Origin: Methyloversatilis sp.
GTDB lineage: Bacteria > Pseudomonadota > Gammaproteobacteria > Burkholderiales > Rhodocyclaceae
Direction of reading: 5' to 3'
NCBI RefSeq assembly: GCF_030698125.1
Contig: NZ_JAUYNV010000058.1
Location: 62,001-126,000, forward strand
DNA: 64,000 nucleotides
Position 1 is the first letter of the stretch. Each line of letters begins with the position of its first letter. Below are positions 11,575 to 62,277 of this stretch, piece by piece. The translations under genes were made by a program, and so were the position numbers. The notes below the pieces were generated by a model. It was given only the letters and a program-made list of their open reading frames with translations. It had not been told where the DNA came from and did not search any database.

Positions 11575-12201
11575 ATGACTTCACCCACTCCCCGCCCGCC
11601 GCTGCGCGTGGGCATCGGCGGCCCGGTCGGTTCGGGCAAGACGGCGCTGACGCTCGCGCTGTGCCTTGCGCTGCGCAGCCGCTACAACATCGCGGCGGTG
11701 ACCAACGACATCTACACCGAAGAAGACGCCCAGTTTCTGGTGCGCAACCAGGCGCTGCCGCCGGAACGCATCATCGGTGTGGAAACCGGCGGCTGCCCGC
11801 ACACCGCGATCCGCGAGGACGCGTCGATCAACCTGGAAGCCGTTGCGCGGCTCAATGCGCGCTTTTCCGGGCTGGACGTGATCCTGATCGAATCCGGCGG
11901 CGACAATCTTGCGGCGACCTTCAGCCCGGAACTGTCCGACCTTACGCTGTACGTGATCGACGTGGCAGCTGGCGACAAGATTCCGCGCAAGGGCGGGCCG
12001 GGCATCTGCAAGTCCGACCTGCTCATCATCAACAAGATCGATCTCGCGCCCATGGTCGGCGCGTCGCTGGAGGTGATGGAGCGCGACGCGAAAAAGATGC
12101 GCGGCGAGCGACCGTTCGTGTTCTCGAACATGAAAACCGGCCACAACCTCGACTTCATCATCGCCTTCATCGAGCGCGAAGGCATGCTGGGCGGCGTCTG
12201 A
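11575..12201 (+). CDS. ureG: Urease accessory GTPase UreG
   Basis: 208 residues. The P-loop [11 protein letters not shown] lies at about 15-25, the metal-binding [11 protein letters not shown] follows, then [15 protein letters not shown] and the NKIDLAP guanine-specificity motif. UreG hydrolyses GTP to drive nickel insertion into UreC. The start was placed at the ATG preceded by GAAAGGACAC; the frame is open further upstream, but that part is repeat sequence. It is the last gene of the urease cluster. Confidence 0.96.
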
Positions 12202-12241
12202 ATTCCGAGTGAAACCTGAGTGAAAGCCGGCTGAACACCGC

Positions 12242-12260
12242 GCTGCTGCACCGCAGCAGC
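12242..12260. terminator. Hairpin between ureG and trkA
   Basis: GCTGCTGC-ACC-GCAGCAGC is a perfect eight-base-pair stem with a 3-base loop, about 40 bases after ureG. No T run follows, so it may be a Rho-assisted stop or a protein site. Confidence 0.35.
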
Positions 12261-12304
12261 CGTGTTGCCGCTACACTCGCGCAACTTTTTCGCAAGGCGG
12301 GCGC

Positions 12305-13732
12305 GTGAAGATCATCATCCTGGGCGCGGGTCAGGTCGGCTCGTCAGTGGCCGAAAATCTGGTGTCGGAATCGAACGACATCACTGTTGTCGATACCGAC
12401 GCCGATCGTCTGCAGGCATTGCAGGACAGGCTGGACCTGCGCGTGGTGTTCGGCAACGGCGCCAGTCCGCTGGTGATGCGCCAGGCCGGCGCCGAAGATG
12501 CCGACCTGCTGATCGCGGTCACCGCGTCCGACCAGACCAATCTGTGCGCCTGTCGCATCGCGCAGACGCTGTTCAATCTGCCCACCCGCATCGCCCGGCT
12601 GCGCTCGATCGATTACGCCGACTATCCGCAGCTGCTGGACGACGACAACTTTGCGGTCGATTTCTCGATCTGTCCGGAACAGGAAGTCACCGACTACCTG
12701 AAGCGGCTGATCGCTTTTCCGGAAGCGCTGCAGGTGCTCGAATTCGGCAAGGGCCGGGTGACGATGGTGGCGGTGCGCGCGGTCGGCGGCGGGCCGCTGG
12801 TCGGCGGGCCGGTGAAGGCGCTGCGTCAGCACCTGCCGGGCATCGACGCCCGCATCGCGGCCATCTACCGGCGCAACAACGCCATCATTCCCGACGGCAA
12901 TACGGTGATCGAACCGGGTGACGAGGTGTTCTGTCTGGCGGCCAGCGAACACATCCGCGCGGTCACCGCCGAACTGCGCCGGCTCGACAAGCCGATGCGC
13001 CGCATCATGATCGCCGGCGGCGGCAACATCGGCTTCCGGCTCGCCACATCGCTCGAAAAGGATTACGAGCTCAAGCTGATCGAACACTCGAGGGTGCGCG
13101 CGGAGTTCCTGTCCACCCATCTGCCGAAGACGCTGGTACTGGCCGGCGACACCACCGACGAGGTGTTGCTGGAAGCCGAGAACATCGACGACATGGACCT
13201 GTATCTCGCGCTCACCAACGACGACGAGAACAACATCATGTCCAGCCTGATGGCCAAGCGCATGGGTGCGCGTCGCGTCGTCGCGCTGATCAACCGCAAG
13301 GCCTACGTCGACCTGGTGCAGGCGGGCGCGATCGACATCGCCATTTCGCCGGCCCAGGTGTCGATCGGTTCGCTGCTCGCCCACGTACGCCGCGGTGACG
13401 TGGTTGCGGTGCACAGCCTGCGCCGCGGTGCCGCCGAGGCGCTCGAACTGGTGGTCCATGGCGACCGCAAGACGTCGAAGGTGATCGGCCGGCCGATTGA
13501 GGAAATCGGTCTGCCCGAAGGCGCCCTGATCGCCGCCATCGTGCGCCGCACGGATCGGCCGGTCACGATAGGCGTGTCCGATCAGGCGGTGCAGCAAACG
13601 CACGACGTGGTGATCATTCCGCACCACGACACGGTGATCGAACCGGAAGACCACGTGATCGTGTTCTGCTCCAGCCAGAAGCTGGTGTCGCGCGTCGAGC
13701 GGCTGTTCCAGGTCGGCTTCGGGTTTCTCTGA
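12305..13732 (+). CDS. trkA: Trk potassium uptake NAD-binding protein TrkA
   Basis: 475 residues with two repeats of RCK_N plus RCK_C. The first nucleotide-binding motif GAGQVGSSVAENL starts at residue 7 and the second, GGGNIGFRLATSLE, at about residue 238. The TrkA_C domain after each half has the EPGDEVF and EPEDHVIVF turns. It is a cytosolic gating ring that binds NAD(H) or ATP and regulates the TrkH channel. The stop and the trkH start share one base (TGATG), so the pair is coupled. Confidence 0.95.
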   Translation: MKIIILGAGQVGSSVAENLVSESNDITVVDTDADRLQALQDRLDLRVVFGNGASPLVMRQAGAEDADLLIAVTASDQTNLCACRIAQTLFNLPTRIARLRSIDYADYPQLLDDDNFAVDFSICPEQEVTDYLKRLIAFPEALQVLEFGKGRVTMVAVRAVGGGPLVGGPVKALRQHLPGIDARIAAIYRRNNAIIPDGNTVIEPGDEVFCLAASEHIRAVTAELRRLDKPMRRIMIAGGGNIGFRLATSLEKDYELKLIEHSRVRAEFLSTHLPKTLVLAGDTTDEVLLEAENIDDMDLYLALTNDDENNIMSSLMAKRMGARRVVALINRKAYVDLVQAGAIDIAISPAQVSIGSLLAHVRRGDVVAVHSLRRGAAEALELVVHGDRKTSKVIGRPIEEIGLPEGALIAAIVRRTDRPVTIGVSDQAVQQTHDVVIIPHHDTVIEPEDHVIVFCSSQKLVSRVERLFQVGFGFL

Positions 13733-15180
13733 TGCTGTCGGTCATCAATGTACTGGGCCGCCTGCTGATCGTGTTCAGCGCGGCCTACCTCGTGCCGATC
13801 GCCTGCGCACTGATCTACGACGACGGCTCGGCCATGCCTTTCGTCGACGGCATGGCGATCAGTGCGGTCAGCGGACTGCTGCTTTATCTGGGCACGCGCG
13901 GGCGCTACGCCGAACTCAAGCCGCGCGACGGCTTCATGCTGGTCAGTTCGGCCTGGCTGTGCATGGCGGTCATCGCCACGGTGCCCTTCATGCTCACACT
14001 TGAATCGTTGAGCTTCACCGATGCGCTGTTCGAGGCGATGTCGTCGCTGACCACGACCGGCGCCACCACGCTGGTCGGGCTCGACACGCTGCCGCCGGCA
14101 CTGAACCTGTGGCGCCACCTGCTGCAGTGGCTGGGCGGCATGGGCATCATCGTGTTTGCGGTCGCCATCCTGCCGCTGCTCGGTGTCGGGGGCATGCAGC
14201 TGTACAAGGCTGAAATGCCCGGTCCGATGAAGGAAAACAAGCTGACAGCCCGCATCACCGATACGGCCAAGGCCCTGTATTCGATGTACATCGGCCTGAC
14301 TATCCTGTGCATCCTTTCACTGAAGCTGGCTGGCATGGACTGGATAGACGCCATCTGCCACGGGTTTTCCGCGCTCGGGCTGGGTGGGTTTTCGACCCGT
14401 GACGCGAGCATCGGCGCCTTCGACTCGGTCGTCATCGAAGGGGTGCTGATCCTGTTCATGATCTTTGCGAGCATGAACTTCGCGACCCACTTCGTCGCCT
14501 TCCAGCGCCGCTCGGTCGGGCCCTACCTGCGCGATGCCGAAGCCAAATCCATCCTGCTCGTGCTGGGTAGCAGTTTTGTCGGCCTTACGCTCTACATCCA
14601 TTTTCAGGACGTGCACGAAGATTTTCTGCTGACCGCGCGCCATGTGGCCTTCAACCTGGTGTCGATCGCGACCAGCAGCGGTTACGCCAGTACCGATTAC
14701 GGCACCTGGCCGCTGTTTGCGCCGCTGTGGATGCTGTTTCTCGGCGCAATCACGGCAAGTTCGGGTTCGACCGGCGGCGGCATCAAGATGATGCGCACGC
14801 TGGTACTGATGGGCCAGAGCCGGCGCGAAATGGTGCGCCTCATCCACCCTGCGGCGGTGTATCCGCTGCGTGTCGGCCGCACCCCGGTGCCGGATCGCGT
14901 GGCGCAAGCGGTGCTGGGTTTCATCTTCGTGTACTTCATGAGCATCGTGCTCGTGACCTTCGTGTTGCTGCTGTCCGGCGGCGATTTCCTGACCGCCTTC
15001 ACGGCCGCGTTTTCATGCATCAACAACATCGGCCCCGGCCTGCAGGAAGTCGGCCCGGCCACCAATTTTTCGTCACTGACCGACTTCCAGACCTGGGTGT
15101 GCAGCTTCGCCATGCTGCTGGGGCGTCTCGAAGTTTTTTCGCTGCTCATCCTCTTCACGCCGGGCTTCTGGCGCAAGTAG
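13732..15180 (+). CDS. trkH: Trk potassium transporter membrane subunit TrkH
   Basis: 482 residues, an inner-membrane protein with about ten hydrophobic helices arranged as four M-P-M repeats. The selectivity-filter segments are visible as SSLTTTGATTLVGLD (first), ALGLGGFSTRDASIG (second), TSSGYASTDYGTWP (third) and NIGPGLQEVGPATNF (fourth). GSTGGGIKMMR is the conserved cytoplasmic-loop motif. It takes up K+ together with TrkA, which is encoded just upstream. Confidence 0.95.
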   Translation: MLSVINVLGRLLIVFSAAYLVPIACALIYDDGSAMPFVDGMAISAVSGLLLYLGTRGRYAELKPRDGFMLVSSAWLCMAVIATVPFMLTLESLSFTDALFEAMSSLTTTGATTLVGLDTLPPALNLWRHLLQWLGGMGIIVFAVAILPLLGVGGMQLYKAEMPGPMKENKLTARITDTAKALYSMYIGLTILCILSLKLAGMDWIDAICHGFSALGLGGFSTRDASIGAFDSVVIEGVLILFMIFASMNFATHFVAFQRRSVGPYLRDAEAKSILLVLGSSFVGLTLYIHFQDVHEDFLLTARHVAFNLVSIATSSGYASTDYGTWPLFAPLWMLFLGAITASSGSTGGGIKMMRTLVLMGQSRREMVRLIHPAAVYPLRVGRTPVPDRVAQAVLGFIFVYFMSIVLVTFVLLLSGGDFLTAFTAAFSCINNIGPGLQEVGPATNFSSLTDFQTWVCSFAMLLGRLEVFSLLILFTPGFWRK

Positions 15181-30149: not shown

Positions 30150-30920
30150 TTACGCCTTCGTGCGACGGCGGGCAGCCAGACCGATCAGGCCCAGACCAGC
30201 CAGCAGCATGGCGTAGGTTTCCGGTTCCGGGATCGCGGCGATCGGCGCGAAACCTTCGAAGGTCGCGGTGCGCAGCGGCGGCGACAGACCATCCACGCTC
30301 GGCGCCTGACGGATGGTGACCGCGTCGATCAGGTAGGTGAATTCCGTCGCATTGGTCTTCAGCACGTACCAGCCGGTCGTCGGATTGCCTTCTTCGACCG
30401 AAATGTCGGTGCGGAAGTCGACCACGTTGTCGTCGAAAACATCCACTGGATTGGTCGGGCGGGTGCGCACGCCATTCGAGGTGTGGGCTGTCGATTGCAG
30501 GCGGAAATCGTCGTCCGTTGCCGCATACCATCCAACCGACACGTAGTAGTTGGCGTAGCCGCTACGCAGGATGTCGTTGATTTCGACGTCGTATTCCACA
30601 TCCCCGATTTCGATTTCGCCGACGACCAGTTCGAAGCGCGACGCGAACAGCAGTGTGTTGTCGCTGGTGCTGCGATAGACGAAGTCGTAGAAGGTCCCGA
30701 TGTCGGTGCCGTCATAGAGCACCGAGCTGATGCGGCGGGCGGCTTGGGTGTAGCCGGCGCTTTCTGGTGTCCAGTCGAAGCCGAGGAACAGCGGGTCAAC
30801 CGCGGCGTTGTTGATGCCGACGATCCGCAGATCGCCGCTTTCCGGCAGGGCGACGAAGGCGTGCGCTGCGTGGGCGCCCAGGCCCAGCATCAGCGATAGT
30901 GCGATGGTTTTGATTTTCAT
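30150..30920 (-). CDS. PEP-CTERM sorted exported protein (first of a pair)
   Basis: 256 residues with an N-terminal signal peptide (about 1-22, ending near AHA) and a C-terminal PEP-CTERM tail: IPEPETYAMLLAGLGLIG then AARRRTKA. Such tails are recognised by an exosortase, which is not in this window. The mid-region (residues about 28-215) is beta-rich with no recognisable catalytic site. The next gene has a similar layout (YDFVYR-type motif, similar spacing), so the two are distant paralogues. Confidence 0.88.
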   Translation of the reverse strand: MKIKTIALSLMLGLGAHAAHAFVALPESGDLRIVGINNAAVDPLFLGFDWTPESAGYTQAARRISSVLYDGTDIGTFYDFVYRSTSDNTLLFASRFELVVGEIEIGDVEYDVEINDILRSGYANYYVSVGWYAATDDDFRLQSTAHTSNGVRTRPTNPVDVFDDNVVDFRTDISVEEGNPTTGWYVLKTNATEFTYLIDAVTIRQAPSVDGLSPPLRTATFEGFAPIAAIPEPETYAMLLAGLGLIGLAARRRTKA

Positions 30921-30962
30921 GATTTTGTCCTCTTTGACAAGTAGTGTGGAAAACTCTGGCTA

Positions 30963-31838
30963 TCAGGCGCTCATGCGACGACGTGCGATCGTGCCGATCA
31001 TGCCCAGGCCGGCCAGCAGCATTGCGTAGGTGGATGGCTCCGGAATTGGAGCAGTGTTGGTCGGGACAAAGCCGGCAGTGAATGCCTTGACGATCGGCTG
31101 GCCCTCTTCGCCCGCCTGGAAGTAGCCGATCGCGTTGTCGGCGACGGTGTAGTAGGTGGCGTTGGTCTTGATGAGATACAGGCCGCTGTATGGATTGTCT
31201 TCGGACAAGTTGATGTCCGACTGGAAGCTGATCGCATCCGGGTCGTACACGTCTGTCGACCCAAGACCTTGATCGCTGCGTGCAGCGCTGTATAGCCGCA
31301 GATCGAAATCTGACATGTACATCCAAGCTGCCGCCGCGTCGAAAACGGTTCCGTTCTCCTCAAATCCGTAGCGGAAGACGTTGTTCAGTTCAGCATTTTG
31401 CTGTTGACCCGGAAGACCGAGAATCACACGAGTGCCAAATACCAGCTTATTGTCCCGCGAATCTCGATAAACGAAATCATACATATCGCCGATTGCTTGG
31501 CCCGCGAGCTGGACATCTTCCGTTAGCCGATAATCAAGTAGCGTAAGCACTCCACTACCGGTAACTGGTCTCGGAATCGGACCTGATGTCGCAATTGAGT
31601 TGTAGCTGATACTGGAAGCAACTAGCGGAATTAATACGTCTCCGATTTCGGTGGTGACGGTAAATGAAGACGTGATTGTTCTGTCAGTGGCCTCAAGAAA
31701 ATAGCGGTCAGTGTTCTGGTTGTTGGCGCCGCTAAGGCGGAATGGAAACACCTTGTTGAGCTCGGAAAAATCACCTGCTGCCGCGCCCAGACTGGCGCCC
31801 ATCAATATTGTCGCTGCAGCGACGTGCGCTAATTTCAT
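30963..31838 (-). CDS. PEP-CTERM sorted exported protein (second of a pair)
   Basis: 291 residues with a signal peptide (ends about residue 22) and the tail IPEPSTYAMLLAGLGMIG followed by TIARRRMSA. It shares with the gene at 30150 the MYDFVYRDSRDNKLVFGTR-type strand and the NATxYTVxDN-like region near the end. Codon use is less GC-biased than in the pqq genes. It probably forms an exopolysaccharide-associated extracellular protein, but its function is unknown. Confidence 0.85.
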   Translation of the reverse strand: MKLAHVAAATILMGASLGAAAGDFSELNKVFPFRLSGANNQNTDRYFLEATDRTITSSFTVTTEIGDVLIPLVASSISYNSIATSGPIPRPVTGSGVLTLLDYRLTEDVQLAGQAIGDMYDFVYRDSRDNKLVFGTRVILGLPGQQQNAELNNVFRYGFEENGTVFDAAAAWMYMSDFDLRLYSAARSDQGLGSTDVYDPDAISFQSDINLSEDNPYSGLYLIKTNATYYTVADNAIGYFQAGEEGQPIVKAFTAGFVPTNTAPIPEPSTYAMLLAGLGMIGTIARRRMSA

Positions 31839-31959
31839 GATGCGATCTCCTTGTTGAAGTGATGCAGGGTGAAGCGATTATTCGGAGGACACGTAACTGC
31901 CCTGCTGTGTCTCTTGTTGTAATCGATCATTGTCTGATCGATGCAAAACGATCCGGTGT

Positions 31960-34560
31960 TCATGACCCGAATGCGTAGTTGAGGCCGAACCACACGGCGC
32001 GCGGCGCTCCGGGGCCGACAAAAAGCGAATGCGTCCAGTCGAAGGAGTTGTAATTGAATCCTGAGGAATCCCTTGCGCCGAACGATCCGGAGGTAAATGG
32101 ATTGACAGCGAGGTCAGCGGCGGTGGTGTATCGGCGGTCGAAAATGTTGTCGACCTTGCAGAACAGGGAAATATTTTTGTCTACCCGGTAATTCGCATTG
32201 AAATTGAACACAGCGAAGCCGGAAGTCCTGCCCTTGCCGACATAGCGTTTTCCAAGACCGGGGATTTGCGCGTTTCCAGTCAGGTCCGTGCCGCCTGGTT
32301 CCGATTCGTTGTTTTCGTTGCCGCGTGCAAACACAAAGGATTGCGCCACCATCGAAAATCCAAATGTGAAATTGCTGGTGACATCCATATTCCAGCCGAG
32401 GCGGAACGAATGCTTCGGAAGCCCCGGAATGACGTCACCTGGATTGATTTCGAAGTCGTTTACCCGCCCCTGGGTACGATCCGCGGAGCTGTTCGATTGA
32501 TTGACGATGGTGGCGCTGGATTCGAAGGTGGCATTCAGGCGGCTGTAGCCGGCACGCAGCGAATGGCGACCGAATTTGCCTTTCAGATTGAGTTCGAAAC
32601 CGTCGCGCTCGGTCTTGCCGAAGGTGTCGAACACGCCGCGGTTGCGCTGGCCGAGCGACACGAACAGGATGTCGTCGGTCAGTTCGGTCCGGTAAGCCGT
32701 GGCGCTCCACGACAACTGTCCGTTCAGGCTGGTACCTCTGAGACCGAGCTCCGTCGTCAGCGACCTGACCTGTGGCAGGAAAGGGTCGGAGGTCAGCGAG
32801 GTGGGAATGGTGCAGCCGAGATTCTTGCCGTCATTCAGCCCGTTCGGATCTTCGAGCGTCTTGTCGCGTGCGCAACCCAATTCGATGACCGATGGCACGC
32901 GCGAACCGCGGCTTACGTTGCCATAGACGTTCAGGTCCTGCGCCGGCAGCCAGGACACGCCGAACGATGGATTCAGACTGCGGTAGCCGTAATCACCTGT
33001 AGAGCAGAGAAATCGGGTGCCAATCGCAGACAAGGTTCCGCAGACTTCTGCGCGATTGTTGAAGAAATTCGAGGTGAATTGGTAAAGCGGAATTGGTTTG
33101 TCCGACTGCAGTTCATTCTTGACACGCGAGTAACTGAGCCGTGCGCCATAGGTGATGAACAGGTTGGGCGCCGCTGTCCAGGTGTCACTGAAGAACAGCG
33201 CCGCGGTCCGGCTCGACCCGGTCAGATTGTTTCGGACGATGTCCTGACTCAGCGCGAGCAGACCCAGATCCACCTCGCGTGAAGGGTCGAGGAACACGGT
33301 GCGTTCGGAATCGATGAAGCCGAGCCGCTGGCTCTGCCGGAAGTCGACGTCGCTCCAGTCGAAGGAAGTGCCGACGACGATCTGATGTGTTTCACTGATC
33401 TGCGTGAATTGCAGGGCGACGCCTTCCGAGCGCTGATCCGAGCGGCTGAAATTGAACAGTCCGTTCGGTGCCAACCCGGCACACCCCGGATAGGTCGGTC
33501 CGATGTTCTGATCCAGCGCGCCATTCGGTGAACCGAAACCGTCCGGGCAACTGACGCCCAGCCGGTTCGCGCTGGCGCCCTGGTCGAAGTCGTCCCACAC
33601 GTCGCCACCCGTGCCCTTCTGCTTCAGGTCACGGCGATACATCTGCAGCGCGACGCTCGATGACTCGCTGATGTCGAAACGGACGCGACCGGTCAGATGA
33701 TTCAGGTCGTTGATGTTCTCGTCCGGTGACGTGAACACCGAATTCGGACTTTCACGCCACTGTTCTTCCGGGATCAGGCCGTTGCCGACCAGGGTGTTTT
33801 CGGCCTTCAGCAGGCTGAGCGTGGCTTCCGTCGACGTGCCGCGGATGTCGATACGGCCGAAGTACTGGCGCACGCTGGTCGGCGAGTTGGTTCGCCAACC
33901 ATCTTCATCGAACTTGTTGAGCGCGAAGAATCCGGCCAGCGGGCCCGAGTTGCCACCCGCGGCGAGCTGGTACTGACGTCGGCCAAACGCACCACCGAGC
34001 GCGGAAAACTCCACCTTCGGACTGGTAAAGCCCGATTTCGTATTGACCGAGATCGCACCGCCCAGCGTGTTGTGACCGAACATCGGATTGGACCCGGGCA
34101 GGAGGTCCATGCGCAGGATCGCGATGTTGGGGATCAGGTCCCAGTTAACGACGTCGCCGAACGCCTCGTTGATGCGCACGCCGTCGAGATAGACCGACAG
34201 GCCCTGCGGCGTGCCGATCAGCGGCGAAGCCGCAAAGCCGCGGAAATTCAGGTCCTGCTGGAACGGATTTCCGGCGTAGTCATTGACGTTGATCGACTGG
34301 AACTGCAGGTTCATCGCTTCCGTCAGCGACACCGCGCCCGACTGCTGCAACTCGTCGCCGGTGAGGCTCTGGACGTTCGACGTCGTTTGCTGCTCGTCGA
34401 GCACCACCCCCGGCAGCGGCGTGATCACGCGCGGTGCGCGGATTTCGACCGTCGGCAGTTCCTTGACCGGCTCTTCCTGCGCACAGACGACGGCACTCGC
34501 GCTCAGCAGGGCGAGCGCGGCCGGGGTCAGGCGAAATGTCAGGGGATGCGAGGGTTTCAT
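31960..34560 (-). CDS. TonB-dependent outer-membrane receptor
   Basis: 866 residues with a signal peptide (ends near VVCA), a TonB-box-like ELPTVEIRAP at about residue 34, then a plug domain (about 55-170) with NFRGFAASPLIGTPQGLSVY, DGVRINEAFGD and GHNTLGGAISVNTKSGF. The rest is a 22-stranded barrel. It ends in NYAFGS and lacks the usual terminal Phe or Trp. The substrate is unknown. Proximity to pqq suggests a metal or redox-cofactor role, but this is inference only. Confidence 0.88.
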   Translation of the reverse strand: MKPSHPLTFRLTPAALALLSASAVVCAQEEPVKELPTVEIRAPRVITPLPGVVLDEQQTTSNVQSLTGDELQQSGAVSLTEAMNLQFQSINVNDYAGNPFQQDLNFRGFAASPLIGTPQGLSVYLDGVRINEAFGDVVNWDLIPNIAILRMDLLPGSNPMFGHNTLGGAISVNTKSGFTSPKVEFSALGGAFGRRQYQLAAGGNSGPLAGFFALNKFDEDGWRTNSPTSVRQYFGRIDIRGTSTEATLSLLKAENTLVGNGLIPEEQWRESPNSVFTSPDENINDLNHLTGRVRFDISESSSVALQMYRRDLKQKGTGGDVWDDFDQGASANRLGVSCPDGFGSPNGALDQNIGPTYPGCAGLAPNGLFNFSRSDQRSEGVALQFTQISETHQIVVGTSFDWSDVDFRQSQRLGFIDSERTVFLDPSREVDLGLLALSQDIVRNNLTGSSRTAALFFSDTWTAAPNLFITYGARLSYSRVKNELQSDKPIPLYQFTSNFFNNRAEVCGTLSAIGTRFLCSTGDYGYRSLNPSFGVSWLPAQDLNVYGNVSRGSRVPSVIELGCARDKTLEDPNGLNDGKNLGCTIPTSLTSDPFLPQVRSLTTELGLRGTSLNGQLSWSATAYRTELTDDILFVSLGQRNRGVFDTFGKTERDGFELNLKGKFGRHSLRAGYSRLNATFESSATIVNQSNSSADRTQGRVNDFEINPGDVIPGLPKHSFRLGWNMDVTSNFTFGFSMVAQSFVFARGNENNESEPGGTDLTGNAQIPGLGKRYVGKGRTSGFAVFNFNANYRVDKNISLFCKVDNIFDRRYTTAADLAVNPFTSGSFGARDSSGFNYNSFDWTHSLFVGPGAPRAVWFGLNYAFGS

Positions 34561-56584: not shown

Positions 56585-59263
56585 ATGCCGGTTGAACTGC
56601 TCACCACCAAGTTGCGCCCGCCCGGGCTGCGACGCACGCCGCTGCGGCGCGACCGCCTCGCGCTCGCTGCGCTTCCCCGTCTGGTGCTGCTCGACGCGCC
56701 GGCCGGCTACGGCAAGACCCGGCTGGCCGCGCAGATGCATGCCGACTGGAGTGTCGACGGCGGGGCCGCCGCCTGGCTCACACTGGACGCGCTCGACAAC
56801 GACGTGGTGCGCTGTGTTGCCCATCTGCTCGAAGCGTTGCGCCGGGCCACCGGTCTGGCGGCGCCAGAAGCGCTGCGCCTGCTGGCGGCCGGCGGCGAAC
56901 AGGGCGAGGCGCCGTCCGCCGCCGCGCTGATGACCGCACTGCTGGCCGCCTTCGCCGCGCTCGAACGGCCCTTGCTGCTGGTGCTCGACGATCTGCACCT
57001 GATCGACGATGCCGGCGTGCTCGACCTGCTCGGTGCACTGCTGCGCACCCCGCTCGACCGCCTGCACTGGGTGATTGCCGCGCGCGGCCTGCCTGCATTG
57101 CCGGTGGCCCGGCTGCGCGCCGCAGGCGAAGTGCTCGACCTCGACGCCCGGGCGCTGTCCTTCTCTGCCGACGAAACCGCCGCCTTCATGCAGCTGGCCG
57201 GTGCGCCGGCGCTGACGCCGCCGCAGATCGCGCAGCTGCACGCGCGCACCGAAGGCTGGGCGGCCAGCCTGCAGCTGGCCGCCATCGCGCTGGGCACGGC
57301 CGGCGATGCCGACGCCTTTCTGCGGCAGTTCTCGGGGGCTGATCGCAGTGTGGCCGACTTCCTGGCCGAAGAGGTGTTCAGCCGCCAGACGCCGGACATG
57401 CAGGCCTTCCTGCTGGCGACTTCCATCCTCGAACGGTTCAACGCCGAACTGTGCGATGCGCTGCTCGGCGCGCCGGCCGGGCGTGCGCTGATCGACGAGG
57501 TCGAGCGGCTCAACCTGTTCATCTTTTCGCTCGATCGCGAGCGCCAGTGGTACCGCTATCACCGCCTGTTCGCAGACCTGCTGCGCCAGCGCCTGCAGCG
57601 CACCCAGCCGGCGGCGGTGCGCGAACTGCATCGTCGCGCCTGCGACTGGCTGGCCGCGCACGGCCAGCCGGAGGCGGCGATCGAGCATGCCTTCTCCGCC
57701 GGTGACGCGGCGCGCGCCGGCGAACTCATCGACGCGGTGAGCACGCCGCTGTTCGTCAGCGGCCGCACGGCGACACTGCGCGCACTGGCCGATCGCCTGC
57801 CGCCCGACGTGGCGGCGGCGCTGCCGCGGCTGCAGCTCGAACTGGCGTGGGAGCACACCATACGCTGGCGCTTCGCCGAGGCGCGCCGCGCGCTGGCGGC
57901 GGTCGAGGCGCATGCCGAACTGTCGGGGCCGGAAGGCCCGGCCTTGCGCGCCCGGCTGGCGCACCGCCAGTTCATGCTGCAGGTGTTCACCGACCGGCTG
58001 GAACAGGCGCTGTCGGCCGGTCACGCCTGGCTGGCCGCGCACGACGGGCGCGAGGACTTCATGAGCGGATCGGTCGCGGTGGCGCTGATGATGTGCGAAC
58101 GCGAGGCGCACCGCTGCGACATGACCGAAGCGCGGGCGGCCGCCTTCAGGCGGCGCTTCTCCGAGGCCGGTGCGCTGTACGGCATGGTGTTCAACGAAAC
58201 CGTGGTCGGCAGCACCCACGCGCTGCGCGGCGAACTGCGGCTGGCGCGGCAGGCGTTCGAAGCGGCCGGGCAGGCGGCGGTGCGCATCCACGGCGAAGGC
58301 TCGGCGCTGGCCGCCATGCCGGCGGCCCAGCTCGCGGCGCTGGCCTACGAGGGCAACCGGCTGACCGAGGCGCAGACGCTGCTCGAGCTGTGTGCCGCCG
58401 CGCCGGCCGAATTCGGACTGGTCGATTCGGTCATCGCGCGGCATCTGACCGCCGTCCGTCTGGCGCGGGCGCAGCGGCGGCCCGCGGCCGCGCATCAGGC
58501 GCTGGACAGCGGCCTGCGCGTGGCCGACGAGTACGGGCTGCCTCGGCTGCGTGCCCACATGCAGGCCGAGCGCGTGCGGCTGTGGCTGTTCGAGGGGCAA
58601 CTGAAGGAGGCCGCGCGGCTGCTGGCCGGGGTGCCGCCGGCCACCTTGCCGCCGGCGCCGACCGCCCATGTCGGGAGTGGACAGATTGCGTTGCTGATGG
58701 CGCAGGCCCGGCTCGATTTCGAGCGCGGCGCCCGTGTCGACACGCTGTCGCTGCTGCGCCGCTGGACCGCCTGGGCGGCCGAACGCCACTGCCTGGCGAG
58801 CGCCGTGCGCCTGTCGCTGCTGCTCGCCGCGCTGGCCCGCCGCGGCGGCGACATGGCGGCGGCGCGCCGGGCGATCGGCGAGGCCGTGCGCTGGGGCAGT
58901 ACGGCCGGCTTCGTGCGCAGCTTCGTCGATGAAGGCGACGACATCCGCGCCCTGCTGGCCGACATGCCTGACGGCGACGCCAGCCGCGCCGCGTTGCTGC
59001 GTGCCTTCGAGGCCGAAGACGGCGAGGCGCCGGTGGGCGTGGTCGCAGCGGCCGAAGCGGAAGACCCGCGCAGCCTGTCGGCGCGCGAACTGGACATCCT
59101 GAAACTGACCGCGGCCAATCTGCTGACGACCGAAATCGCCGCCCGTCTGGGCCTCGCCGACACCACGGTGAAGTGGTACTGGAAGCGCATCTTCGAAAAG
59201 CTGGGCGTGCGGCGCCGGCCGCTGGCGGTGCGGCTGGCGCGCCAGCGCGGGCTGATCGCCTGA
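56585..59263 (+). CDS. MalT-like ATP-dependent LuxR-family regulator
   Basis: 892 residues from ATG 56585. The frame is open from GTG 56507 and ATG 56543 is another option. The STAND ATPase P-loop is LLDAPAGYGKTRLAAQM (about 35-51), with VLDDLHLIDD as Walker B near 140. A long helical-repeat sensor middle follows, then a C-terminal LuxR helix-turn-helix (SLSARELDILKLTAANLL, then TTEIAARLGLADTTVKWYWK). Such proteins bind an inducer and activate target operons. Its ligand is unknown; its neighbours suggest an aromatic or alcohol signal. Confidence 0.88.
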   Translation: MPVELLTTKLRPPGLRRTPLRRDRLALAALPRLVLLDAPAGYGKTRLAAQMHADWSVDGGAAAWLTLDALDNDVVRCVAHLLEALRRATGLAAPEALRLLAAGGEQGEAPSAAALMTALLAAFAALERPLLLVLDDLHLIDDAGVLDLLGALLRTPLDRLHWVIAARGLPALPVARLRAAGEVLDLDARALSFSADETAAFMQLAGAPALTPPQIAQLHARTEGWAASLQLAAIALGTAGDADAFLRQFSGADRSVADFLAEEVFSRQTPDMQAFLLATSILERFNAELCDALLGAPAGRALIDEVERLNLFIFSLDRERQWYRYHRLFADLLRQRLQRTQPAAVRELHRRACDWLAAHGQPEAAIEHAFSAGDAARAGELIDAVSTPLFVSGRTATLRALADRLPPDVAAALPRLQLELAWEHTIRWRFAEARRALAAVEAHAELSGPEGPALRARLAHRQFMLQVFTDRLEQALSAGHAWLAAHDGREDFMSGSVAVALMMCEREAHRCDMTEARAAAFRRRFSEAGALYGMVFNETVVGSTHALRGELRLARQAFEAAGQAAVRIHGEGSALAAMPAAQLAALAYEGNRLTEAQTLLELCAAAPAEFGLVDSVIARHLTAVRLARAQRRPAAAHQALDSGLRVADEYGLPRLRAHMQAERVRLWLFEGQLKEAARLLAGVPPATLPPAPTAHVGSGQIALLMAQARLDFERGARVDTLSLLRRWTAWAAERHCLASAVRLSLLLAALARRGGDMAAARRAIGEAVRWGSTAGFVRSFVDEGDDIRALLADMPDGDASRAALLRAFEAEDGEAPVGVVAAAEAEDPRSLSARELDILKLTAANLLTTEIAARLGLADTTVKWYWKRIFEKLGVRRRPLAVRLARQRGLIA

Positions 59264-59389
59264 GCCGGGCGTGCGGAGCTTTCCTCGTCCACGACACACT
59301 CTCGGCTTTCTTTGTGTGAGTGCGACGCCAATGCGCGCTGCTAGACTTGCGGCGGCTGAAGGGCTGCATGCCATAGGTCTGGCACGACG

Positions 59390-59491
59390 ATGGTGCCTCG
59401 CAAGTATGGCTACCTGCTGGCGCAGCGAGAACAAGTGGCTGAGCAGGTACTGGCTTCGGCCAAACTGACTGATGGAGACGCTGGGCAATGA
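59390..59491 (+). CDS. Small ORF translationally coupled to the ATPase gene
   Basis: 33 residues: MVPRKYGYLLAQREQVAEQV then LASAKLTDGDAGQ. Its TGA (59489-59491) overlaps the ATPase ATG (59488), so ribosomes could re-initiate there. The sequence is helical and could be the tail of a lost longer gene, because a stop lies 10 codons upstream in frame and no good ribosome site is evident. I cannot assign a family. Confidence 0.4.
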   Translation: MVPRKYGYLLAQREQVAEQVLASAKLTDGDAGQ

Positions 59492-60513
59492 TTGATCACA
59501 TCAAACTCGACAACTTTGGGCCGCTCTCCAAGATCGATTGGCCAAAACTGGGCAGGATCAACCTGATTATTGGCGGCAACGGCAGCGGCAAAACCTTTCT
59601 GCTCAAGTCCATCTACAGCTGCATGCGCACGCTGGAAGAATACAAGCGAGGTAATGAGCAGCGCTCCGCCTCGGAGATTCTGGCCGACAAGCTGTATTGG
59701 ACGTTCCAGGCCGAGAAGATCGGCGACTTGGTCAGCAAGAGTGCAGATGCCCCCTTGTCGAGCACGCTCACCATCGACAAGCGGGACTTCTCATACAGCT
59801 TCGGCAAGGACACCAGCAGACAGATTACCGGTCTGGAAAACCATGTACCCCCGCGTGAGAGCAACTCGGTCTTTCTGCCCGCCAAAGAAGTGCTGTCGCT
59901 GCACCAGATCATTCTGAAGTCGCGAGAACAAGACAAGGTCTTTGGTTTTGACGACACCTATTTTGATTTGGCAAAAGCGCTGCGCTACATACGTCCCAAT
60001 GGAAAGAAGGGTGGAAAAAACTTCGACGAATTTGCCAAATCACGCGCACAGCTTGAGGACATTCTTGGGGGCGTAATCAAGTACGACGAACCTTCTGGTC
60101 GCTGGCTGTTTGTCGAGGGTCGTCACAAGTTCCCCATCGGGGTTACGGCGGAAGGCATCAAAAAGATCTCCATCCTCGACACCCTGCTGGGCAACCGCTA
60201 TTTGGACACCAACTCGGTGGTGCTGATCGATGAGCCTGAGTCGGCCCTGCACCCCACTGCCATTTCGCATCTGCTGGATATCGTGGCAACGTTGGCAGAT
60301 CGTGGCATCCAGTTTTTCATGGCCAGCCACTCCTACTTTGTCGTCAAGAAGCTATTTCTGATTGCGCAGGAACGCGCTTGGTCGATCCCAGTGATTTCAG
60401 CGACTGATAGCGGCTGGACTTACGACGACCTGATGAAAGGCATGCCGGACAACCCCATCATTGCGGAGTCCATTCGTCTATATCGGCAGGAAGTGGAGTT
60501 GGCGCTCAAATGA
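59488..60513 (+). CDS. AAA/ABC-type ATPase of a two-gene module (possible defence ATPase)
   Basis: 341 residues. Walker A GGNGSGKT (29-36) follows an N-terminal IDHIKLDNFGPLSKIDW, as in the AAA15/OLD-like families. Residues 125-140 carry SVFLPAKEVLSLHQ, typical of that group. Walker B is VVLIDEPESALHP (244-256) and the H-loop is FMASHSYF (277-284); the signature region is TAEGIKKISIL. No C-terminal TOPRIM domain is present, unlike true OLD nucleases. Base composition is visibly lower in GC than the flanking genes. Its stop overlaps the next start (ATGA). Confidence 0.85.
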   Translation: MIDHIKLDNFGPLSKIDWPKLGRINLIIGGNGSGKTFLLKSIYSCMRTLEEYKRGNEQRSASEILADKLYWTFQAEKIGDLVSKSADAPLSSTLTIDKRDFSYSFGKDTSRQITGLENHVPPRESNSVFLPAKEVLSLHQIILKSREQDKVFGFDDTYFDLAKALRYIRPNGKKGGKNFDEFAKSRAQLEDILGGVIKYDEPSGRWLFVEGRHKFPIGVTAEGIKKISILDTLLGNRYLDTNSVVLIDEPESALHPTAISHLLDIVATLADRGIQFFMASHSYFVVKKLFLIAQERAWSIPVISATDSGWTYDDLMKGMPDNPIIAESIRLYRQEVELALK

Positions 60514-61043
60514 CCACGCAAGCCATCATCGAATCGGGGATGACTTTTGGGCCCTTTCCGGCCGGACAGTGCTTTTATATCGAGACAAGCACGTGCTATG
60601 AGAAGATCAAAGAGGGAGTGCAGATGGCCGAATTTCTGTTGCTGCGGCAGCAGGAAAGCGGCCCGACAGTGTGGGTGATAGAAGCCAAGTCCAGCAGCCC
60701 GAGACCCGAGACGCAGCCCAACTTCGACGAGTTCATTGACGAGATTCGCAATAAGCTAACCAATGGCTTTCTCTTGGTGGTAGCAGCACGCCTTCAACGT
60801 CATCCGGACGCAAGGACTGAGCTTTCTCCAGCCTTCCGTGCGCTCAATCTGCAGGAACTGGATTTTCGATTCGTGCTTGTGATCAATGGCCATCAGAAAG
60901 CTTGGCTCGAGCCACTGAAGCGAGCATTGGATCTTGCGTTAAAACCGGTGGTCAGAACGTGGGCGCTTTCGCCAGTGTCAGTCGTTGTAATGAATCACGA
61001 GCTCGCGTTGCAGCAAGGACTTATACAGCCGGTCGCGCCATGA
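60510..61043 (+). CDS. Small protein with a PD-(D/E)xK nuclease-like motif, partner of the ATPase
   Basis: 177 residues. Its first half contains FYIETSTCYEKIKEGVQMAE (23-41) and WVIEAKSSSPRPE (about 55-67). The E-x-K in a strand, with an upstream Glu, resembles the core of PD-(D/E)xK nucleases, and the NFDEFIDEIRNKLTNGFLLV helix-strand follows as in that fold. The last third (FRFVLVINGHQKAWLEPLKR) is variable. It starts inside the ATPase stop, so the two should be made together. Nuclease activity is inferred from the motif only. Confidence 0.65.
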   Translation: MTTQAIIESGMTFGPFPAGQCFYIETSTCYEKIKEGVQMAEFLLLRQQESGPTVWVIEAKSSSPRPETQPNFDEFIDEIRNKLTNGFLLVVAARLQRHPDARTELSPAFRALNLQELDFRFVLVINGHQKAWLEPLKRALDLALKPVVRTWALSPVSVVVMNHELALQQGLIQPVAP

Positions 61044-61221
61044 GGGCGCCATTGCTCAGTCGGTCAGGTGACGGGGCCAGCAGACTCATCGCCCGCTGGA
61101 CGGATACCGAGACGTGCCTGAGAGCATCACGACCGGTAGGTCGTTCTGCGGGAGCGCGTCTTAGCCGCGCTGGCCCGGATTAATCCGCACATCCCGGCCG
61201 CTTCCTTGAAGCAAGCCGTAC

Positions 61222-62277
61222 TCAGGCCACCTGTTCCGCCGCCTCCTCCTTCAGCAGCTTGTCGAGCAGCCACAGCAGCTTGCCCGGGCCGGCGTCGTGC
61301 GCGTAGTCCACGGTGCGGAAGTCCGGCTTTTCCTTGATGCGCTGGTGCTGGCCTTCGAGGATGCGCTTGTCCTCCAGGAAGGCTTCGTTGATCGCTTCGT
61401 ACAGCAGCACGCCCAGGCCCGGCGCGTCGGTCGCCTTGCTGGCACCCCAGGAGTAGTAGTAATCGACCGCGTCGGCGTCGCAGGGCGTGATCGCCTGGCT
61501 GGAGAAGGTGTCCAGCATGAGCTGTCCGTTCGACGGTCCTTCGGCGGCAGCGCCGGCCGCGTTGTTGGCTGCATACACCTGGAAGTGCAGGATGAAGTTG
61601 CAGGGGAAGCTCATCTGCGACAGGAAGTACAGGTCGAACACCATGTCCGGCGGGAACAGGTGCTGCGCGAAGCGCGGCGCGGGCACGCCGCGAAGCCAGA
61701 TTTCGGTGTCCATGCCGCGCGGCTTCAGCGTGTGTTTCGGCCGCGTGCTGGCATAGACCGTGGTGCCGCCGAAGGTCTGGTCGTGCACCCAGGAAATGTG
61801 GGTGAGGTCGGACAGGTTGGCCAGTTCCAGCCGGTAGTTCGTGTTCACCCGGACCTTGGAGGTGCGCAGGTTCCAGTCCGGGTGGCCGGGGCCGACCGCC
61901 TTGCAGATCAGATCGGCGTCGGCCTTGGCCGGATCGCCCATCCACACCCAGATCCAGTTGTCGCGCTCGACCACCGGGAAGGTGCGCACGCAGGCGCGCT
62001 CCGGAATCTGCGTCTGGCCCGGGATTTCGACGCAGCGGCCGTGCGGGCCGAACTTCCAGCCGTGGTACATGCAGCGCAGCGCGTCGCCCTCCTTGCGCCC
62101 GAGCGACAGCGGTGACTGGCGGTGACAGCAGCGGTCTTCCATCGCCACCACGCCGCCATCCGGCCGCCGGTACAGCACCAGCGATTCGCCGGCGATGCGG
62201 CGGGTGATCAGGGCGTCGCGGCCCTGGCTCAGTTCGTGGTCCCAACCGGCGCAGTACCAGCAGTTCTTCAGGAACAT
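61222..62277 (-). CDS. Rieske oxygenase, copy 2 (VanA-like, ring-hydroxylating type)
   Basis: 351 residues from the ATG preceded on its strand by GAGGAGA. The Rieske ligands are [20 protein letters not shown] then MYHGWKFGP (about 49-76). The mononuclear-iron region has [16 protein letters not shown] (Asp and two His). It is diverged from copy 1 at 45860. It is divergently transcribed from a second XylR-type regulator. The reductase partner is probably the VanB-type protein at 54196. Confidence 0.88.

Follow-up and report, generated by a model that had tools for sequence, protein, structure and literature searches.

What is the GC-poor block of coupled genes found among aromatic-catabolism genes in a 64,000-nucleotide stretch of Methyloversatilis sp. 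DNA (the window), and how may it have arrived there? Three open reading frames overlap in series: one of 33 codons (59390-59491), one encoding 341 residues (59488-60513), and one encoding 177 residues (60510-61043). A preliminary description had read them as a candidate phage defense system of foreign base composition, consisting of a small coupled ORF, an ATPase, and a protein with a PD-(D/E)xK-like strand. Its primary observations hold, with ATGA overlaps at both junctions (59488-59491 and 60510-60513), intact Walker motifs, and an E-x-K strand all in place. The left neighbor is a MalT/LuxR-type regulator that ends at 59263. On the right, a convergent gene encodes a Rieske oxygenase of VanA type, and farther out lies a gene for an aromatic activator of XylR type. 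The coupled pair is GC-poor, as had been described (0.537 versus a window mean of 0.657), though of 250 sliding 1500-nt segments, eight have a GC content of 0.56 or less, three of them at the pair and five in a block starting near 30.5 kb. The low GC content at the pair is thus not unique and serves as a pointer only. In the other low-GC block (30251-33500) lie genes for two PEP-CTERM proteins (30150-30920 and 30963-31838), and a TonB-dependent receptor gene (31960-34560) falls partly within it.

We compared the two larger proteins with PADLOC profiles, which were scanned one by one and thus give profile matches rather than calls by the system rule. The 341-residue ATPase matches PDLC04214 (HEC-02A) with an E value of 1.2e-158, residues 1-340 aligning with positions 1-337 of 338, and the 177-residue protein matches PDLC04221 (HEC-02B) with an E value of 1.1e-66, residues 1-172 aligning with positions 1-169 of 171. 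The two genes are adjacent on one strand in the window and in 16 other loci, and their order in the window is that of the matching relatives. Judged by these sequence comparisons, the ATPase and the 177-residue protein are a genuine two-gene unit that is already catalogued as the PADLOC candidate system HEC-02. The pairing had been thought to match no nameable system, which the end-to-end matches of both genes correct. The broader claim, a coupled ATPase without TOPRIM and a PD-(D/E)xK-like protein in a foreign block, agrees with HEC-02 being catalogued as a candidate phage defense system, and the defense role of our pair would accordingly be a candidate one. HEC stands for Hma embedded candidates (PMC10855318). 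Activity has been reported for HEC-04 (PMC12111858) and for HEC-06 among several other HECs (PMC12988326). In the literature searched, to which the source preprint (doi 10.1101/2024.01.29.577857) did not belong, no functional report on HEC-02 by name was found, and the name occurred only in an unrelated chemistry paper. HEC-02 was known beforehand as a catalogued, little-studied candidate; the copy described here is a member of HEC-02 that lies amid type I restriction-modification (R-M) remnants. A block taken for an unnamed three-gene system now has a name and a likely origin. Two further PADLOC labels appear to be swapped, as PDLC04145 ("HEC-02A," 170 positions) hits B proteins and PDLC04146 ("HEC-02B," 344 positions) hits A proteins.

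HEC-02A (59488-60513, plus strand) is an ABC-type ATPase that matches Pfam AAA_21 (E 9.5e-21) and also AAA_15. No TOPRIM family of Pfam matches either HEC-02A or HEC-02B at E ≤ 1. NCBIfam returned 69 families for HEC-02A, and among the 25 matches listed all score far under their own cut-offs. The Walker A motif GGNGSGKT (residues 29-36; 59572-59595, plus strand) has Gly-29, Asn-31, Gly-34, Lys-35, and Thr-36 invariant in 15 of 15 sequences, as are Asp-248, Glu-249, Pro-250, and Glu-251 of the Walker B region VVLIDEPE (residues 244-251; 60217-60240, plus strand). His-281 is present, and the protein ends about 60 residues past it. The predicted structure (pLDDT 83.9, pTM 0.87) superimposes on PtuA with a Z score of 18.6 (rmsd 4.8, 303 aligned residues), a tie with SMC/Rad50 heads (Z about 18).

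HEC-02B (60510-61043, plus strand) matches no Pfam family, HNH included, at E ≤ 1, and among 16 HEC-02B members we found no convincing Pfam match, with three families hitting one member each (HamA, at 0.037, among them). The HEC-02B profile likewise found no PDB sequence at E ≤ 10. The AlphaFold2 model, computed from 16 sequences, has a pLDDT of 92.8 and a pTM of 0.90, the Comamonas plasmid row having been excluded from the structure alignment. Foldseek gave no match at E ≤ 0.001; FokI fills its top three rows (best E 1.1e-3, probability 1.00), and Hachiman HamA and Cap4 come next with lower probability amid unrelated chains. VIA-align, which only re-ranks Foldseek's own matches such that other PD-(D/E)xK neighbors may lie outside its list, places Can2 first with a Z score of 7.1, a modest value within the range reachable by unrelated folds. 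FokI (6.0), N.BspD6I and EcoO109I (both 5.9), and BsmI (5.4) follow, with EndoMS (4.8), HamA (4.7), and Shedu (4.4) lower down. Non-nuclease chains are interspersed in this list, namely acetyl-CoA carboxylase (5.7), a MARTX protease domain (4.8), and a Rag-like GTPase (4.7). Can2, FokI, and the other nuclease neighbors share the PD-(D/E)xK fold. All 16 sequences contain the acidic residue Glu-8 of an ESGM motif (60531-60533, plus strand), Glu or Asp at the presumed metal-binding position Glu-41 (60630-60632, plus strand), and Lys-82. In the E-x-K strand, Glu-58-Ala-Lys-60 (60681-60689, plus strand), Glu-58 is kept in 16 of 16 sequences and Lys-60 in 15 of 16, the exception being an arginine in L025. 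The spacing of 17 residues between Glu-41 and Glu-58-x-Lys-60 is the same as that between Asp-450 and Asp-467-x-Lys-469 of FokI. As the Z values are modest, the fold call leans jointly on residue conservation and on the series of nucleases heading the list. HEC-02B is probably a PD-(D/E)xK-like protein and a putative nuclease, judging from model and alignment. The structural comparison, in which the top neighbors are nucleases at modest scores, does not refute the nuclease-like reading made earlier from the letters. Arginine replaces Lys-60 in two otherwise intact HEC-02B proteins, L025:9266-9805 and the distant L077:4964-5512, the latter from outside the 16 sequences.

The HEC-02 proteins resemble components of several established systems. 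The match of the HEC-02A model to PtuA, tied with SMC/Rad50 heads, recalls Septu and retron PtuAB, but the partner of PtuA is an HNH nuclease (as entry titles name it for the retron IA complex), whereas HEC-02B is PD-(D/E)xK-like and has no HNH match. HEC-02A also matches PD-T4-4_A (E 6e-17), far more weakly than the HEC-02A profile, and HEC-02B matches HEC-02 models only among PADLOC profiles at E ≤ 1, none of PD-T4-4. A related ATPase domain is shared with PARIS (AriA/AriB), Gabija, and OLD (AriA profile 4.9e-23, Old 1.3e-11), but the HEC-02 proteins have no TOPRIM match, and the fold predicted for the partner is a different one.

We examined how closely the two genes are tied to each other. 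HEC-02A lies directly upstream of HEC-02B on the same strand in each of the 17 examined loci where both genes would fit, and the proposal that the two genes belong together is borne out by their co-occurrence elsewhere. At the junctions, we found a 4-nt overlap in 14 loci, a 10-nt overlap in 1, and a 1-nt gap in 2; this count depends on B start codons that were chosen by the analyst in the more distant loci, and it leaves aside the pieces of G194 (L026 and L034) and G226 (L030), where a contig break puts A on another contig. L077 and L078, found later and outside the 17, have annotated A-B gaps of 3 and 2 bases. In a mirror-tree comparison of the 14 loci common to alignments A4 and A5, A and B distances correlate with r 0.907, a value not reached in any of 2000 permutations. 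In two 398-genome samples, which we took as identical since they follow the same drawing rule and their hit handles coincide, A is found at E ≤ 1e-130 in nine genomes, all among the 11 with B. At E ≤ 1e-30, A is found in 16 genomes, 7 of which have no B match. We inspected three of the seven: the contig of G294 ends within A, G394 has about 250 bases left after A, and G282 has room for B after A, but B was not found there by tblastn with a single query. In genome G194, the first HEC-02A codons run straight into HEC-02B in a deletion-like manner (L026:11-445), and B is split over two contig ends; either the copy is decaying or the assembly is at fault here.

The search of genome contigs with HEC-02B gave five loci with relatives. 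Samples of 150 genomes from the family, 300 from the order, and 398 from the phylum contain 2, 2, and 11 genomes with HEC-02B, respectively, the own genome being counted each time. By tblastn, a single match was found among 72,556 plasmid records, and two further plasmids were reached through HEC-02A, whose partners there also match HEC-02B models. Among 50,697 phage records, no HEC-02B match was found at E ≤ 1e-5, and HEC-02A gave two only, at 28-30%.

The origin of the block becomes apparent from a comparison with a Rhodoferax MAG (L002), where the genes are ordered rpoN (assigned by eye), hsdM, a gene for a small NTase_sub_bind protein, hsdS, an FRG-domain gene, HEC-02A, HEC-02B, HEC-01A, HEC-01B, and hsdR. 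Window positions 59391-61000 are 78.9% identical to L002 at the nucleotide level. The similarity extends beyond the pair on both sides. Upstream, window 59360-59491 (plus strand) is a remnant of the C-terminal end of the FRG-domain gene (PADLOC PDC-S15 in L002) and spans the 33-codon ORF; residues 384-429 of the L002 FRG protein align with window 59360-59488 at 56.5% identity and an E value of 3.4e-7 (tblastn, with L058 converted to window coordinates). The L002 FRG protein ends in ...RKYGYPQVLREQVAEQMLVLAKLTDGGDGQ and the 33-codon ORF in ...RKYGYLLAQREQVAEQVLASAKLTDGDAGQ. The local score of this region against L002 is 99, whereas 50 shuffles reach 38 at most. Downstream, window 61068-61217 (plus strand) is left over from the 5′ portion of hsdR, which encodes the type I restriction subunit, and contains two stop codons; this remnant corresponds to residues 40-85 of L002 HsdR, with 62% identity over 50 columns and an E value of 4.1e-9 (tblastn). 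Because FRG and hsdR remnants flank the pair, the block looks like cargo that has outlived a decayed type I R-M locus. The simplest account of these alignments is that what looks like an L002-type R-M locus has shrunk to its HEC-02 cargo and two scraps. Such direct remnants show how defense cargo can outlive its carrier restriction system.

The interval between the host genes that contains the foreign block (59264-61229, unstranded) measures 1966 bp, the left 96 bases of which (59264-59359) lie 5′ of the FRG remnant. We searched 13 genomes of the genus, the own genome included, for an empty site. Only one relative, G118, was informative, with a clear regulator ortholog (72% identity). In it, just 87 bp separate the regulator from the Rieske gene, which aligns in two segments at 87% and 95% (L075; blastn/tblastn), and the 10-kb stretch contains no HEC-02 pair. 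No position in the window could be assigned with confidence to this spacer. Around the block no transposon ends or target-site duplication were recognized, and the repeats found are short. The own genome contains an intact type I R-M locus on contig C10 (L057), whose HsdM and HsdR are 54% and 56% identical to those of L002. It is not an obvious source of the block, as the L057 stretch is without HEC-02 and the genome has a single HEC-02B match. This locus has its own cargo, SoFic (3.7e-110) and PDC-M05A (8.1e-80), and a second, partial copy of the HsdR N terminus lies between the two, as if recombination in the 5′ end of hsdR had brought the cargo (L057:8646-8783 and 11641-14826).

Other relatives are found in varied surroundings. 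In most of the 14 listed loci, the neighbors are ordinary genes, as judged by eye. R-M genes occur in 2 of the 20 stretches searched with the proteins of L002, these being L002 itself and L006, where HsdS and a HEC-01A fragment precede the HEC-02 pair. In L031, a remote HEC-02 pair lies between HmaB and HmaC (both matching at E 0), the single Hma example and the context behind the name of the candidates; the window pair instead lies between type I R-M remnants. On a Polaromonas plasmid (L077), a gene annotated as BREX-2 PglX adjoins a divergent HEC-02 pair, again a single example. A Comamonas thiooxydans plasmid, whose record includes resistance genes, carries a stand-alone pair (L036:13988-15546) flanked by a recombinase gene and IS26. 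In L003 (5035-8525), HEC-02 is found directly behind rpoN without R-M genes. In L002 it is the R-M locus that follows rpoN, and the two are possibly the same site in two states.

We think it quite probable that the block is a HEC-02 pair left from the cargo of a type I R-M locus, and that the pair acts as an ATPase-gated PD-(D/E)xK effector. The pair would once have been carried between hsdS and hsdR, and loss of the surrounding R-M system would have left the last codons of the FRG-domain gene and the hsdR scrap. With ATP bound, HEC-02A may dimerize in the manner of Rad50 and PtuA and keep HEC-02B in a complex, and on sensing infection it would let HEC-02B cut nucleic acid. We count in favor of this explanation the PADLOC matches, gene order, distance correlation, co-occurrence of strong A matches with B, predicted folds, residue conservation, defense contexts, remnants, empty site, low dN/dS values, and the WonAB precedent described below. 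Against it we count the modest Z scores of HEC-02B with non-nuclease chains nearby, its lack of Foldseek, PDB, and convincing Pfam matches, the mostly ordinary neighbors and the R-M genes in only 2 of 20 stretches, the occurrence of A without B in 7 of 16 genomes, the K60R replacement in L025 and L077, the lack of a sigma-70-like promoter in our scan, and the dependence of the empty site on one relative. The conserved residues Lys-35 and Glu-249 of HEC-02A and Glu-41, Glu-58, and Lys-60 of HEC-02B form a set for testing the candidate system.

It is less clear what HEC-02B would cut. A possible, if doubtful, alternative is direct restriction of invading DNA, in which HEC-02A would serve as a Rad50/PtuA-like sensor of DNA ends or structures and HEC-02B as a DNA nuclease, and the host would not be killed. 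This would fit the proximity of the HEC-02A model to Rad50/SMC heads and PtuA, the DNA restriction enzymes FokI, EcoO109I, and BsmI among the HEC-02B neighbors, and the finding of the pair as cargo of DNA restriction systems. PD-(D/E)xK folds can cut RNA as well, however, so that the fold does not settle whether HEC-02B targets DNA or RNA. A similarly built pair further argues against direct DNA restriction: WonAB from the Vibrio cholerae WASA-1 prophage is a validated ABC-ATPase and PD-(D/E)xK pair, for which both genes and both active sites are needed, and overproduced WonB arrests growth only with active WonA, leaving genomic DNA intact and apparently blocking translation (PMC12137116). HEC-02 resembles WonAB in being a two-gene operon of an ABC-ATPase and a small PD-(D/E)xK protein, a predicted one in the case of HEC-02B. 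When listing operons with similar organization, the authors of the WonAB study refer to the preprint from which the HEC names come and include PD-T4-4 (PMC12137116). An operon related to WonAB is "OLD-ABC ATPase + novel REase." WonA, according to this study, has a C-terminal extension predicted to bind the 16.1-kDa WonB (PMC12137116), whereas HEC-02A ends about 60 residues after His-281. Because of the WonAB analogy, cleavage of RNA or another self-damaging cut leading to abortive infection seems somewhat likelier to us than clean restriction of phage DNA.

A bolder version of this scenario, which we regard as unlikely, would make HEC-02 a minimal, portable immune cassette of 1.5 kb that moves as cargo into larger defense loci, aborts infection through its own RNA-acting, ATP-gated PD-(D/E)xK effector, and both persists and spreads alone after its carrier has decayed. 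The cargo positions in this reading are before hsdR in a type I R-M locus, between HmaB and HmaC, and beside a BREX-type PglX.

The window copy could also be a dead relic, its operon promoter gone with the decay of the R-M locus and the pair silent, which we consider rather improbable. Remnants on both flanks and the apparently decaying copy in G194 speak for such a fate, as does our promoter scan, which found no sigma-70-like promoter in the interval (0.8 expected by chance); a terminator scan gave one terminator-like site (1.9 expected). However, both reading frames and their motifs are intact, and other HEC-02 copies stand alone with no carrier system. The dN/dS values between the window and L002 (0.085 for HEC-02A and 0.096 for HEC-02B) also argue against a relic, but at about 0.09 they are averaged over the whole divergence and do not date the decay. 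There is little to recommend a role in housekeeping DNA metabolism or another non-defense function: the neighbors are mostly ordinary-looking, and SMC/Rad50-like ATPases and nucleases serve in repair too, but the patchy distribution in family, order, and phylum, the copies on plasmids, and the examples inside three kinds of defense locus all speak against it.

A three-gene system with the 33-codon ORF as a coupled regulator or antitoxin is hardly credible despite the ATGA overlap with the ATPase start, since the letters of the ORF match the FRG gene end in L002 and sequence upstream of the pair is clearly similar in only 2 of 17 other loci, as the end of a whole FRG gene in L002 and as a 10-residue tail of the L002-type gene, shorter still, in L004. 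The similarity of L022 is marginal (score 28 versus a maximum of 25 in 50 shuffles), and the other 14 loci score within shuffles. We thus rejected the ORF as a system component; from these alignments it is very probably debris of the FRG gene. Of the preliminary description, the ATPase with its nuclease-like partner, the candidate defense character, and the foreign block stand, while the lack of a name and the membership of the small ORF, whose overlap is itself real, do not.

The FRG-domain protein of L002 (5705-6994; FRG 2.8e-25) itself contains a C-terminal HsdR-type piece (T1RH-like_C, 3e-13). If this piece corresponds to the HsdR segment that binds the methyltransferase, an FRG effector could be recruited to the type I complex.
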